The notes beneath the pieces are model-generated. The model saw only the letters and a program-made list of their open reading frames with translations, was not told the DNA's origin and did no database searches. Source: Candidatus Rokuibacteriota bacterium (GTDB taxonomy: Bacteria > Methylomirabilota > Methylomirabilia > Rokubacteriales > CSP1-6). From it: a stretch of 44,474 nt of DNA. How positions within the stretch are numbered: the stretch's first letter is position 1; each line of letters starts with the position of its first letter. Position numbers and translations under genes: made by a program. Positions 1 to 7,699 of the stretch are shown here, piece after piece. Where the stretch lies: positions 1 through 44,474 of the forward strand of contig QHSI01000137.1 of the NCBI GenBank assembly GCA_003221515.1, written 5' to 3'.

Positions 1-1171
1 TCACCTCGTACAAGGTGGCGTCGCCGAGGCGATGGTCGCTCGTGAGGATGTGTCCGAGCTCGTCGACGATGAAGCCCCGGCGCGGTGGTGGCTGAACCTC
101 CCGGCGTTGCGAAGGTCTGATGTCGACGACCGCGCGCATCAGGACCGAGATCGCCGCTCTGGCCCAGCGGGGAGATTCAGAGGACCACTCGGGCAGATCG
201 CTACGCGGTGACGACGTCCTGCCGAACCGTCGGGGGCCGGGGAGCAGGGCATCGAGCGCAGCGCCTCCGCCTCGGGAAAGTGCTCCTGGAACGGATGCGA
301 CCGTCGGCGTGGGCCCGGGCAGGACCGCCGTCACGCTTTCGCTCGGGGGCGTCGACGGCACCTCAGGCGCCCGCGGTACGACCTCGGCGATGGCCTCACG
401 TGCTGGGGCTGGCGACGGTGCCGTCGGCGACGGCGTGATGCGCGGGTTCTCGCGCCCCGGCGATCCTGGAGGATTCGCGGGCCCGGCGGACTTCGGCGCC
501 ACCGTTGCCTCGCTCGGCGGCGCGATTCGCGCCGCGAGCTGTCCGGCGGCTGGCGCTAGCCGCTCTTCGCGCCGCTCGCCCTCGCGCTGAAGGCGCGCTT
601 GCGCCTCGATGGACAGCGGCTCCTCGGGCGCACGAGGCGGCGGCGGTGCCGGCAGTGCGGGTGGGATCTCGGACGAGGGCGGCTCGGGGACGCGAGCGAC
701 ATTGCGAGGCGCGCGGCTCCAGAAGAACGATGACGTCAAGACCAGCAGGGGGATCGCGACGATCACGCCAGCGGCGATCGTGGCGGGTACGATGACCTTC
801 CGCAGGACGCGGGCGCGGCGCACGAAATCGCGGCCAGAGACAGGGCGAGAGACATCTGGAGGCGACGACGAGAACCCGCGCGAGCGTCCACCACTCGGCT
901 CACGACACCCCGTACAGTCGGGCAACACCACGCGCAGGGGCGCGGCGCAGGGCTCATGATGCTGCCAGTTCTGTGTGCATTCCGGGCAGAAGTGAAAGTG
1001 CAGTCCACGTCGTGCTCCCGGCGCCGGAGCCGCGTCCGCGATCGGGAAGCACCAGGGACAACATGCCACGGCGCCCTCCTCACACGCGCCGTCGTGATCC
1101 CAGTCGCCCTCGCAGATATTGCAATAATGCGAGTGCAGTCCCGCCGCGGTCGTCACGTGCTCCTCGCTCAC
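1..1171 (-). CDS. Membrane-anchored protein, Cys-rich N-terminus and S1C-like C-terminal segment (partial)
   Basis: Reading the minus strand from a GTG at 1171 gives about 390 uninterrupted codons running off the left edge. The first ~90 residues hold about eleven Cys (near 17, 20, 30, 37, 38, 41, 62, 65, 75, 86, 89) in CxxC-type pairs with many His, which looks like tandem zinc ribbons. A single hydrophobic segment follows at about 126-151, then ~200 Pro/Ala-rich residues. The last visible stretch, GFIVDELGHILTSDH, resembles the region around the catalytic His of DegP/HtrA-like peptidases (GFVID..G.ILTN.HV), but here Asp sits before His and the rest is missing. The start lies 3 nt past the stop of the upstream TPR gene, so coupling is likely. 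A second GTG five codons in is an alternative. Protease function is inference. Confidence 0.6.
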   Translation of the reverse strand, partial: MSEEHVTTAAGLHSHYCNICEGDWDHDGACEEGAVACCPWCFPIADAAPAPGARRGLHFHFCPECTQNWQHHEPCAAPLRVVLPDCTGCREPSGGRSRGFSSSPPDVSRPVSGRDFVRRARVLRKVIVPATIAAGVIVAIPLLVLTSSFFWSRAPRNVARVPEPPSSEIPPALPAPPPPRAPEEPLSIEAQARLQREGERREERLAPAAGQLAARIAPPSEATVAPKSAGPANPPGSPGRENPRITPSPTAPSPAPAREAIAEVVPRAPEVPSTPPSESVTAVLPGPTPTVASVPGALSRGGGAALDALLPGPRRFGRTSSPRSDLPEWSSESPRWARAAISVLMRAVVDIRPSQRREVQPPPRRGFIVDELGHILTSDHRLGDATLYEV

Positions 1172-1174
1172 CAG

Positions 1175-3268
1175 CTAGCTCGCTCGACGGAGGCCTTCGA
1201 GCGCGGCCTCGTTCCCGGGCCCGAGCTGCAGCGCCCGTTGAAACGCAGCGCGCGCCTGCGCCTTCTGACCGAGCTGGATGTGGCACCAGCCGATGCCTAC
1301 CTGGAACTCGGCATCGTTCGGCGCTGCCGCGCTCGCACGGGTGAACGCCGCCAGCGCGTCGCGATAGCGGCGGACGTAGTAGAGGCTCCATGCCACCTTC
1401 GCTCTCAGCGCCGCCGCTTCCACCGGTTCGTCGCCGAAGAGAGGCCGCGACCTCCGGAGCGCCTTCTCGAGCGTCGGCAGAGCGAGGTCGTATTGGCCCA
1501 GCTCGAAGTGGGCCGAGCCCAAACCATTCAGGGCGTCGGCGTAGTCCGGATTGCGATCCAGCGCCGGCCGGAACGCGGCGATCGCGAGGTGATATCGCTG
1601 GAGCCGAACCCGACTCCATCCCAGGCCGTCGTACAAGCCTTCCCAGGTAGGCTGGCGACGGAGCGCGCTCTTGAACGTGATGATCGCGCTCTCGAAGTCA
1701 CCGACGAAGTACTCGGACCAGGCGAGCAGGGCTCGCGCCTGGTCGTGGTTCGGATACAGGATGATGGTTTCGCGCAGAAGGTCTCGCGCCTCGCGGAACT
1801 TGCGCGCCTCGAGAAGGGCCCGGCCCTGGTTGAAGGTCGTCTCTGCCCGCATGCTCCTGCGCGCATCCTGGAGGAAGCCCGGAGGTGCCGTCGCGAGAGA
1901 GGACGCCGACGCGATCGACGCGGGGCGATCGGCAGCCTCCTCCGCCGCCTCCCACGCGCGCTCGGCCGCGTCCCGCGCGCGGAGCGCCGCGAGGCGCGCG
2001 AGGCCATCGGCGTTGGGCTGGGACGAGGTCGCGAGACGCGCTGCCTCTGCGGCGGCCTGCTCGGCCTCGCGGGCCGCGTCGGCCGCGGCGCGGGCCGAGT
2101 CCATCGCGGCATCCGCAACTTCGCCGGCGTGCTGGACCTGCGGTCCGGGCCGGACTTCGGCCGCGTGCCGCTCGCCGATTCGTTGGGCCGTCTCCGCCGC
2201 CTGCGATGCGAGACGGGCGGCTTCGGCGGCGGCCCGCGCCGCGAGTAACGCCGCGCGTTCCGTGAACGACACGATGTCGCCGGCATCAGGCTCGGATCCC
2301 AAGATGCCGGCCGGCGACTGTGCGCGACCATCGCTCACGGCCGGCGGGACCGCTCGGGCGTGCTCCGCGCGTCCGATGCTCCGCGTCCGGTAGGCGTTTG
2401 TTCTGACGCCGGTCGCGCGCGGGCTGCCCGCTCCGGCTTCCGAATCCAGCACGCTGTTCAACGAGATTCCTGCGCTCACTCCGCTGCTGTCGGTGGTCGA
2501 GCCGACCCCGGCGCTGACACCAGAGCTGCTGACGCCGGCGGTTCCGCTGACGCCGACGCCCGCGGCACTGGCGCCGACCCCGGCGCTGACACCGCTGCTG
2601 CCGACGCCAGCTGTTCCGCTGACGCCCACCCCGCCAGCCGAGGCGCCGACCCCGGCGCTGGCGCCCGAGCCGCTGACCCCCGCGGTTCCGCTGACACCGA
2701 CGCCGCCAGCCGAGGCGCCAACCCCGGCGCTGGCGCCACCGCTGCCGACGCCCGCAGAACCACTGACTCCAGCGGCCCCGGCCGAGGCGCTGCCCCCGGC
2801 GCTGACACCGCTACTTCCGGCACTGGTCGCGCCACTCACGCCAGCGGCCCCGGCTGAGGCGCTGCCTCCAGCGCTTGCGCCGCTGCCCCCGGCGCTGGCC
2901 GCGCCGCTGACCCCCGCGGCCCCGGCCGAAGCGCTGCCCCCGGAACTGGCGCCGCTACCTCCGGCACTGGCCGCGCCACTGACCCCCGCAGCGCCGGCGC
3001 TTGCTCCACCGCTAGCACTAGCCCCGCCACCGCTGACTCCAGCAGCGCCGCTGACACCGACACCGCCAGTGGAGGCGCCCACGCCGGCGCTCGCGCCGCC
3101 GCCCCCCGCCGAGGCGCCGACCCCCGCGGCAGAAGCGCCTACTCCCGGCCCTGCTGCGGGCGCACTTCCGGCTCCGAGCATCTGAACCACATCGGGGAGG
3201 GGCGAAAGGAGGAGAGTGAGCGCCAAACCGAGAGCGCAGGCACGCGACGAACCAGTCCCGGTAGTCAT
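1175..3268 (-). CDS. Secreted TPR protein with Gly/Ser/Ala-rich 24-residue repeats
   Basis: This 697-residue protein has an N-terminal signal-like hydrophobic segment (about 9-28). Residues 62-253 are eight tandem 24-residue repeats of the type GGSASAGAAGVSGAASAGGSGASA, almost free of charged residues. An Ala/Glu/Arg-rich, probably helical region follows (about 330-450). The C-terminal ~230 residues are TPR repeats (ALLEARKFREARDLLRETIILYPNHDQARALLAW; GLGSAHFELGQYDLALPTLEKAL). TPRs mediate protein contacts. The low-complexity block may be a surface or cell-wall-spanning linker, which is inference. The ATG at 3268 has GGAG 7 nt upstream. The gene is followed by the Cys-rich membrane protein at 1171, a likely partner. 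No enzymatic domain is recognised. Confidence 0.8.
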   Translation of the reverse strand: MTTGTGSSRACALGLALTLLLSPLPDVVQMLGAGSAPAAGPGVGASAAGVGASAGGGGASAGVGASTGGVGVSGAAGVSGGGASASGGASAGAAGVSGAASAGGSGASSGGSASAGAAGVSGAASAGGSGASAGGSASAGAAGVSGATSAGSSGVSAGGSASAGAAGVSGSAGVGSGGASAGVGASAGGVGVSGTAGVSGSGASAGVGASAGGVGVSGTAGVGSSGVSAGVGASAAGVGVSGTAGVSSSGVSAGVGSTTDSSGVSAGISLNSVLDSEAGAGSPRATGVRTNAYRTRSIGRAEHARAVPPAVSDGRAQSPAGILGSEPDAGDIVSFTERAALLAARAAAEAARLASQAAETAQRIGERHAAEVRPGPQVQHAGEVADAAMDSARAAADAAREAEQAAAEAARLATSSQPNADGLARLAALRARDAAERAWEAAEEAADRPASIASASSLATAPPGFLQDARRSMRAETTFNQGRALLEARKFREARDLLRETIILYPNHDQARALLAWSEYFVGDFESAIITFKSALRRQPTWEGLYDGLGWSRVRLQRYHLAIAAFRPALDRNPDYADALNGLGSAHFELGQYDLALPTLEKALRRSRPLFGDEPVEAAALRAKVAWSLYYVRRYRDALAAFTRASAAAPNDAEFQVGIGWCHIQLGQKAQARAAFQRALQLGPGNEAALEGLRRAS
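2510..3085 (-). repeat. Eight tandem 72-bp (24-codon) coding repeats
   Basis: Codons 62-253 of the TPR gene form eight in-frame 72-bp units. Units 2-5 share the core SAGAAGVSG, and units 1 and 6-8 share GVGAS.GGVGVSG.AGVS. This suggests two subfamilies that expanded by unequal crossing-over. The opposite strand is open across the repeat and would encode a Pro/Thr/Leu repeat, a by-product of the GC-rich codons. Confidence 0.85.
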
Positions 3269-5481: not shown

Positions 5482-6465
5482 TCAGTCGCGGTCGGTGGCG
5501 ATGACCGGCTTGTAGCCGTGGGACTTTAGAGTTTGGAGCTTGGCGGCTGCCTCGGCGCGGTCCGTGAACGGGCCGATACGCACCCGTAGCAGCAGCTGGC
5601 CCCGCAGACCCGTGGGTGCCTTCACCGCGTCGATCGCGAGCGGCAGGCTCTCCTCGAGGAGGCGTGACGCGAGCTCGCCGGCGACCGTGTTCGTGAACGC
5701 GCCCATCTGGATCCAGAACGAGCCGGGGGCCGGCCCAGCAGCCGGCGGCACGGCCGGCCCCAGCTCGGGGACCGTGCGCAGAGCGACATCGGTGAGGGGC
5801 TCGAGGACCGGCGCCGGGCTTGCGTCGACGCGGGCCGCGGGAGGTTCGACAGCCACCGTCGCGACGGTCGCCGGCATCGCGACCTTCGTCCTCAGCTCGG
5901 CGACGAGCTCCGGGTACGACGAGCGCCGCAGCACCCGCTGGAACTGGGCGCGGTAGTTCTGCACGAGCTCGACGCCCTCGATCGACACGTCGTAGACCAT
6001 CCAGCGGTCGCCCTGCCGGATCATCCGATGCTCGAGCGGGACCTCGCGGCCGTCCCGACTCTCGATGGTGGCGGTGACGGTCGCCCGGTCGCCCTCGATG
6101 ACCTCATCGATGTAGCGCACGGCCAGCCCGGGGCGCACGGTCGCCCGGGCGGCGATCCGCGAGATGTAGGCGCTCTCGACGAGCTCCTTGAACAGCTGGA
6201 CGAACTCCTCGCGCTCGGCCGGCGTCCGGATGTCCCAGTCGCGCCCGAGGACGAGCCGTGCGGCCAGACGCGCCTCGAAGCGATCGGCCACGACCGCGCG
6301 GATCGCGGTGTGTAAGTCCTCCGGCTTTTCGCGGAGCGTGGGATCCTCGAGCAGGCGATTCACGGTCGTCACGACCGCGGTGAGAGTCTCGGTGGGCGGC
6401 CCCGCCCCCGCTTCACCGCTGAAGGCGAGCACCACCGTCAGGACGGCCGCGGGCCACCGAGCCAT
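5482..6465 (-). CDS. MlaC/Ttg2C-like phospholipid-binding protein fused to a SPOR domain
   Basis: This 327-residue protein has a signal peptide (1-21, ending GEAGA), then an MlaC (toluene tolerance, Ttg2C) domain at about 25-205. Typical segments are RLVLGRDWDIRTPAEREEFVQLFKELV and VPLEHRMIRQGDRWMVYDVSIEGVELVQNYRAQF. A Pro/Ala linker follows, then a C-terminal SPOR domain from about 250 (FWIQMGAFTNTVAGELASRL ... VRIGPFTDRAEAAAKLQTLKSHGYKPVIA). MlaC shuttles phospholipid between outer and inner membrane. SPOR binds denuded peptidoglycan, often at septa. E. coli MlaC (about 211 aa) has no SPOR part. No mlaABDEF genes are in the window. The gene lies 67 bp downstream of the peptidase gene. Confidence 0.85.
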   Translation of the reverse strand: MARWPAAVLTVVLAFSGEAGAGPPTETLTAVVTTVNRLLEDPTLREKPEDLHTAIRAVVADRFEARLAARLVLGRDWDIRTPAEREEFVQLFKELVESAYISRIAARATVRPGLAVRYIDEVIEGDRATVTATIESRDGREVPLEHRMIRQGDRWMVYDVSIEGVELVQNYRAQFQRVLRRSSYPELVAELRTKVAMPATVATVAVEPPAARVDASPAPVLEPLTDVALRTVPELGPAVPPAAGPAPGSFWIQMGAFTNTVAGELASRLLEESLPLAIDAVKAPTGLRGQLLLRVRIGPFTDRAEAAAKLQTLKSHGYKPVIATDRD

Positions 6466-6532: not shown

Positions 6533-7618
6533 TCAGGGACGGTCGGGCGAGAACCCTCGGGCGGCGACGATCTTGTAGTCCAGGAGCCGGATCTCGTACG
6601 TGCCGCGGACGTAGTCGCTGCCGGCGCCCCACGTCCGGAACCCCTTGGTGAGAATGGGGATGGACACCTGCTTCGCGAGCCCGGGCGGGATCACCGCGCC
6701 CTTGATGTCGCGCAGGTGGAAGTCCAGGACGTCGCCGCGCGCGTTCTTGACCACGACCAGGACGCGCAGGTCAGCGATCGTGTCGTTGGTCTTGTTCTGG
6801 ATGGAGGCGGTGAGGGACGCCAGGGTGCTCCCCTCGGCGAAGAGACCGAACTCCTCGATGACGTTGTTGAAGAAGACCAGGTCCTTGCTGCGGTCGATCT
6901 CGCGCAGATCGACCGCCGCCGGCTTCGCCGCCGTGAAGGCGACCGTGGAGGGGGGCAGCTCTCGCAGGAGGTTGACCGGCAGGGCGAAGTTCAGGTTTTG
7001 CCCCTTCGCCGACGTGGCCGTCGCGACGCCGACCACGCGCCCCTGGGCGTCGAACACCGGCCCGCCGCTGCTGCCCGGGCTGATCGGCGCCGTGATCTGC
7101 AGGAACTTCGTGTTGTTCAGCGTCCGCAGCCCGCCCACGATTCCGGTCGAGACGGTTCCTTCCAGGCCATGGGGATTGCCCAGGACGACGACGTCCTGGC
7201 CGACCGACACCGCCTCCGAATCGCCGAGCAAGACGGACGGCGTGGTCGTGAACGAGGTCTGGATGGTCACCAGATCGTGCTTGCGGGAGAAGTTCACGAT
7301 CTTCAGCGCGGTCCCGCTCTGCCCGCGCCAGCGCAGCAGAACCTTGGCCGCTCCGCCCACGACGTGCGCGTTGGTCACCACCACGCCGTCGCGCGTGATG
7401 AAGAATCCGCTGCCGAGCGCCAACGGCTGGTCGTGGTCGTCGACGGCGATCAGCGTCACGACCGAGGGGAGGTTCTCGCGGGCGACGCGCGCGGCCGTCG
7501 ACTCTTGCGCGTAGGCCGTGCGGTGAAGCCCGAGGGGCAGCAGCGCGGTGAGCGCCAGACCGGCCGCGAGACCGGCGCGCGCGAGCGATGGCGGGCCGTC
7601 GACGATCGCTGTTCTCAT
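6533..7618 (-). CDS. Trypsin-like (S1C/HtrA-type) serine peptidase, secreted
   Basis: From the ATG at 7618 this is 361 residues with a signal peptide (LAAGLALTALLPLGLHRTAYAQ). The chymotrypsin fold shows all three catalytic residues: His in VVVTNAHVVGG, Asp in RKHDLVTIQ, Ser in PISPGSSGGPVF. There is no recognisable PDZ domain; the C-terminal ~130 residues look like a beta-rich domain (ASIQNKTNDTIADLRVLVVVKNARGDVLDFHLRD). It probably acts in the periplasm in protein quality control or processing. The 7618 start is chosen because AGAGGGGG precedes it at good spacing and because a good promoter (7671-7699) lies within the longer reading frame that begins at 7699. Confidence 0.85.
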   Translation of the reverse strand: MRTAIVDGPPSLARAGLAAGLALTALLPLGLHRTAYAQESTAARVARENLPSVVTLIAVDDHDQPLALGSGFFITRDGVVVTNAHVVGGAAKVLLRWRGQSGTALKIVNFSRKHDLVTIQTSFTTTPSVLLGDSEAVSVGQDVVVLGNPHGLEGTVSTGIVGGLRTLNNTKFLQITAPISPGSSGGPVFDAQGRVVGVATATSAKGQNLNFALPVNLLRELPPSTVAFTAAKPAAVDLREIDRSKDLVFFNNVIEEFGLFAEGSTLASLTASIQNKTNDTIADLRVLVVVKNARGDVLDFHLRDIKGAVIPPGLAKQVSIPILTKGFRTWGAGSDYVRGTYEIRLLDYKIVAARGFSPDRP

Positions 7619-7670
7619 GTTCGCCCCCTCTGGGCACGGCACGACGTTCTTGACGAAACCGTAGCTAACT

Positions 7671-7699
7671 TTTTTACACGAAATGCGCAGATCTGACAA
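7671..7699 (-). promoter_or_regulatory. Sigma-70-type promoter for the serine peptidase
   Basis: On the minus strand TTGTCA (7699-7694, 5/6 to consensus) and TAAAAA (7676-7671, 4/6) are separated by 17 bp. Transcription would start near 7664, giving a leader of about 45 nt. A poly-A/T-rich -10 region stands out in this GC-rich sequence. Confidence 0.5.

Follow-up and report, generated by a model that had tools for sequence, protein, structure and literature searches.

A putatively exported TPR protein and its neighbour, a predicted membrane protein carrying an HtrA-like domain with a degenerate catalytic triad, in Candidatus Rokuibacteriota

The stretch of DNA analysed here (44,474 nucleotides, termed the window) is contig C180, beginning with base 1, from the 191-contig genome of a soil bacterium; its left end carries neighbouring minus-strand genes for predicted cell-envelope proteins. 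The first gene of a pair occupies positions 1175–3268 (minus strand) and encodes an exported-looking protein of 697 amino acids, which was recognised from its open reading frame and from matches to Pfam TPR families. The second, called the partner gene in the following, opens with a GTG at position 1171 on the same strand, 3 nt past the stop codon of the TPR gene (TAG CTG GTG). The left edge of the window is open, and the first 390 codons of the partner frame (positions 2–1171, minus strand) are followed by the edge of contig C180, which cuts the gene. Gene order, strand, coordinates and the 3-nt spacing had been given in a preliminary description of this DNA and were borne out by a check of the reading frames.

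The N-terminus of the TPR protein is hydrophobic and resembles a signal peptide, judged by hydropathy and counting only. Self-comparison revealed a block of 24-residue Gly/Ala/Ser/Val repeats at residues 43–258 (positions 2495–3142, minus strand). Their period was as first described, with a lag-24 self-identity of 0.75, compared to a mean of 0.26 and a maximum of 0.36 in 2000 same-residue shuffles; the number of units had to be corrected from eight to nine, the first one being imperfect. An Ala-rich region at residues 334–449 (positions 1922–2269, minus strand) is conserved in the alignment and probably helical. Residues 472–697 (positions 1178–1855, minus strand) make up the TPR region, as delimited by Pfam and alignment; tandem TPR motifs scored above the Pfam cut-off (TPR_16, 4.9e-27), in agreement with the TPRs noticed earlier.

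The partner protein begins with two clusters of Cys and His residues. Cluster 1 (HSHYCNIC..W.H..C..CCPWC; residues 13–43, positions 1043–1135, minus strand) and cluster 2 (HFHFCPEC..NW.H...C..C..C; residues 58–89, positions 905–1000, minus strand) have Cys/His columns which are invariant in 8/8 sequences, except for the last Cys pair of cluster 2, which is not conserved in the related genome G002. Two clusters are present in the window's partner and in that of G002, and three in some members. They had been described as zinc-ribbon-like; the clusters are there, but a Pfam search gave no convincing match to a Pfam family or to a known zinc-ribbon family. Matches of the cluster profile to trefoil factors in the PDB (E 0.015 and 0.038) were judged to be due to chance. 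Structure models were too poor for use, with a mean pLDDT of 36 for a full-length relative of 493 residues (6-row alignment) and of 49 for a three-cluster region (8-row alignment).

A single transmembrane segment was predicted at residues 126–144 (positions 740–796, minus strand; KD19 value 2.61 at residue 126, from hydropathy and counting only), flanked by seven Lys or Arg residues on its N-terminal side versus three on its C-terminal side. An excess of Lys and Arg before a transmembrane segment argues for a cytosolic N-terminal side, and Cys clusters prefer a reducing compartment; because of both, the clusters are probably cytosolic. The adjoining Pro-rich linker (positions 197–724, minus strand, with 13 Pro in 60 residues) is very variable in length in the alignment of the relatives. 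Hydropathy and counting thus recovered the signal-peptide-like N-terminus, the one membrane segment and the linker of the preliminary description. In genome G007 (L029 7733–9913) the linker is enlarged by internal repeats with units of about 50 residues, and in G006 (L027 2692–4587) by internal repeats with NTAGTNTADANTAG-like units.

An HtrA-like domain starts at positions 2–196 (minus strand) of the window; its remainder was assigned to contig C118 of the same genome (L005:8581–9216). This contig matched window positions 1–362 at 98% and 493–575 at 99%, and its copy is without 141 bp of the Pro-rich linker, in frame (about window positions 363–503); the missing piece is bordered by a direct repeat of 11 bp. 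C118 ends inside the partner gene and C180 begins inside it. In G002, one single contig carries, in this order, the C118 neighbours (luciferase-like and methionine-synthase-like genes, named from reading their translations), the partner gene, the TPR gene, and the amidohydrolase and ABC substrate-binding genes of the window. Because both sets of neighbours are united there, the missing end of the partner gene very probably lies on C118, a conclusion reached by comparison and not from an assembled join. The C118 copy stems perhaps from a slightly different strain, and the length difference of 141 bp together with the direct repeat is the likely cause of the break in the assembly. L005 also encodes a FecR-domain protein (736–2058, plus strand) that ends C-terminally in a tandem repeat rich in Pro. 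The window also matched contig C25 at the DNA level; this match was discarded, as it falls in an unrelated TPR-bearing gene region.

The segment GFIVDELGHILTSDH, for which HtrA-like character had been suggested, is the start of an HtrA-type domain according to Pfam, NCBIfam and PDB matches. The C118 fragment matched Trypsin_2 (Pfam, 1e-16), DegP-like and HhoA entries of the PDB (2e-17 and 7e-16, respectively), and the NCBIfam HhoA/HhoB/HtrA model (9.3e-21, 74.5 bits, far under its cut-off of 450); other HtrA models also scored, far under their cut-offs. No PDZ domain was found in the fragment by Pfam, where only Trypsin_2 was above cut-off, and the protein ends shortly past the domain. The partner thus shares protease-domain homology with HtrA proteases of the DegS/HhoA type, and DegS is also membrane-tethered; it differs from them by the absence of a PDZ domain and of the triad, and by its additional N-terminal clusters and long tether.

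For comparison of the catalytic residues, six members with the domain were aligned with 14 ordinary HtrAs (L037–L050; related genomes, from genus to class) and with the protein encoded at window positions 6536–7699. The His-Asp-Ser triad was kept in 14/14 control HtrAs and in 0/6 domain members, whose columns read H/G/V in the window's genome (G000), Q/D/V in G002, K/D/I in G004, R/D/V in G006, Q/D/V in G007 and R/D/A in G008. The catalytic Asp and the GNSGGP motif, for which a search had been proposed, are Gly and EGVGGP in the window's gene. The catalytic His position (H, Q, K, R, Q, R) lies in conserved surroundings and, given this variety, would appear to be unconstrained. Judging from these alignments, the domain is not a protease by the usual triad, and of the envelope pair with a role in proteolysis suggested before, the pair and the HtrA relationship stand and the proteolysis does not; a part in sensing or in recruiting a partner, suggested along with it, is still conceivable. 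The relatives of the partner gene are from metagenome-assembled genomes, in which assembly errors could produce single frameshifts, but hardly a Ser replacement in 6/6 members. An unusual protease, active with other residues, is extremely improbable: His is kept in the window's copy and the homology to HtrAs is strong, but Ser is replaced by V, I or A, none of them nucleophilic, in all six, and a complete triad is found in no copy.

A search with the N-terminal part of the partner protein yielded matches in 8 of 39 genomes, among them the window's own, all from the window's genus. Among 95 genomes from the phylum, a profile of the Cys module was positive in eight, which once more all belong to this genus; eight of its nine genomes were positive and G001 was not. 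A scan of contigs from 84,980 species, based on two short peptide patterns which distant kin can escape, and perhaps leaving out the window's own genome, returned eight loci, all from Candidatus Rokuibacteriota metagenome-assembled genomes and, by their length and position, evidently the contigs already known. The TPR gene is located directly upstream of the partner gene in 8/9 loci, with spacings from a 1-nt overlap to a 15-nt gap, so that the two genes are indeed conserved as neighbours. The exception is G008, which showed no TPR gene upstream and has a frameshift in its Cys region; at the G006 C120 locus the TPR gene is much shorter.

Two types of loci can be distinguished. In type 1 (6/9 loci) the HtrA-like domain is present; in type 2 (3/9 loci: G003, G005 and G006 C120) the partner ends just before it, and G006 carries both types. 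The peptidase domain suspected in the left gene exists, via C118, as an HtrA-like domain; it is without triad and is absent from three of the nine loci. A search of G001, G003, G005 and G008 with a domain profile detected the domain only in G008; G003 and G005 gave only weaker matches at the level of ordinary HtrAs, and G001 none at 1e-30. The end of the tether, a PGAP-like stretch, is common to partners of both types. Since type 2 partners are without the domain, the core function cannot depend on it and must reside in the clusters, the tether end and the TPR protein, with the HtrA-like domain adding something. Type 2 loci provide a natural control, as they possess the rest of the partner and the TPR protein, and their comparison with type 1 would test the contribution of the domain.

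In trees of seven paired TPR rows and eight module rows (the short G006 C120 TPR gene was left out), type 1 and type 2 were split (support 100/99) in the TPR tree and likewise in that of the Cys modules, as is expected of co-inherited partners. Solo TPR rows fell within the type 2 side of the TPR tree. The TPR family is broader than the pair, with 13 of 95 phylum genomes positive at 1e-30. Downstream of the TPR homologues in 11 further stretches (frames of at least 150 codons, up to 3 kb), no Cys-cluster/HtrA partner was seen; several of these stretches are at contig ends, and L079 has no downstream sequence. Because of such homologues the TPR protein appears to be older than the pairing. They include exported TPR proteins or lipoproteins from the same phylum (G025, G039–G043), which have a homologous TPR region (best E per genome 4e-52 to 4e-117) but, unlike the window's protein, no such partner within 3 kb downstream in the stretches fetched. 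In G003 (L024 1692–3964) two tandem copies of the TPR gene were noticed, the second of which is preceded by what is left of the first Cys cluster of a partner.

The six degenerate domains formed one clade (support 100/100) with a long stem of 2.06. Pairwise dN/dS values (Nei-Gojobori) were 0.28–0.38 in the ten pairs without G008 and 0.43–0.57 in the five pairs with G008, which is frameshifted upstream. It could be argued that an HtrA fusion is being lost and that the domain has no present role, considering its absence from type 2, the frameshifted Cys region and the higher ratios of G008, and the drift of the catalytic His position. This explanation is unlikely, since the ratios in the other ten pairs are low, 58/228 columns are invariant in the alignment of the six domains, and the domain frame is open in 6/6 members (that of G004 being cut by its contig). 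From these values the domain is under purifying selection, and its retention seems to be for binding.

In the literature searched, MamO is the sole HtrA pseudoprotease from bacteria whose role has been worked out. MamO (PMC4794232) is an HtrA relative of magnetotactic bacteria which has lost catalysis and gained non-catalytic roles; it carries a TauE transporter domain at its C-terminus and binds metal at a site made of two histidines (H148, H263). Both proteins are trypsin-like HtrA relatives with a degenerate triad and a non-catalytic role, proposed here for the partner; the partner differs by its N-terminal Cys/His clusters and Pro-rich tether, whereas MamO has TauE. No TauE domain was found by Pfam in the partner's end. 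The position of H148, compared at this first His only, is Asn in 6/6 members. MamO is the nearest precedent for how the partner works, although the partner itself is not a MamO; it was filed as a new architecture of an HtrA-derived pseudoprotease, and would be the second one beside MamO.

The precedent bears on two other explanations. The degenerate domain might be a decoy that modulates the many active HtrAs of the cell, either by entering their complexes or by competing with them, in the way that MamE is activated by MamO. Genomes of the genus contain at least 10 domain matches each (15 in the window's genome, the gene's own pieces included), and MamO itself is an example (PMC4794232). No active HtrA was consistently linked, however, the trypsin-like protein at 6536–7699 being unmatched in the G002 and G007 loci (with partial coverage of the neighbourhoods), and the activation by MamO requires the TauE domain, which the partner does not have; such a regulator is possible, but doubtful. 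A metal sensor, in which transition metals are bound both by the degenerate domain and by the clusters in the cytosol so as to signal metal status, is rather improbable. Invariant Cys/His columns of both clusters in 8/8 sequences (G002's last Cys pair excepted) and the metal-binding pseudoprotease MamO (PMC4794232) would fit such a sensor, but the residue preceding the catalytic Asp, which is His148 in MamO, is Asn in all six members, and the clusters have no Pfam or convincing PDB match.

Our preferred interpretation, tentative at a probability of about 0.45, is that the pair, one member of which is the exported TPR protein, constitutes a non-catalytic scaffold, receptor or sensor of the envelope. 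The partner would be a bitopic inner-membrane protein with two or three Cys/His modules in the cytosol, probably zinc-bound, and with one helix followed by a long disordered Pro-rich tether reaching into the periplasm. There the HtrA-derived domain would not cut, but would be retained for binding. The TPR protein, presumably translationally coupled to the partner and exported, could bind the degenerate domain or the conserved end of the tether, and the complex may link something periplasmic to the cytosolic modules, as scaffold or receptor. In favour of this interpretation are the HtrA homology, the triad loss in all six members, the variable His position, the single clade with its low dN/dS values, the TPR gene upstream in 8/9 loci, the parallel split of the types in the two trees, and the G002 contig on which both sets of neighbours are united. 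Type 2 loci without the HtrA domain, the G008 exception, the short G006 C120 TPR gene and the solo TPR proteins speak against it.

A more specific version, a speculative one, would be a lineage-specific transmembrane receptor, in which an HtrA domain that now reads misfolded periplasmic proteins instead of cutting them drives cytosolic Cys/His (zinc) modules with a signalling or binding role inside the cell, with a repeat-bearing TPR protein as partner; these parts were not described together in the literature searched. Searches on HtrA pseudoproteases, MamO, Rokubacteria TPR proteins and zinc ribbons, with subscription papers mostly outside their scope, gave no description of the pair. Conflict systems reportedly contain trypsin-like and TPR domains, and a link to the pair is conceivable.

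Two neighbouring genes in the window may be mentioned. The gene at positions 6536–7699 (minus strand) lies at a distance of 3.3 kb from the pair and encodes another trypsin-like protein, secreted-looking and with an H/D/S triad that is apparently intact. It was considered as a component of the pair's system and set aside, because neither the G002 nor the G007 locus gave a match to it. The gene at positions 5485–6465 (minus strand) encodes an MlaC domain and a C-terminal SPOR domain, and would thus combine lipid transport and peptidoglycan binding in a single protein.
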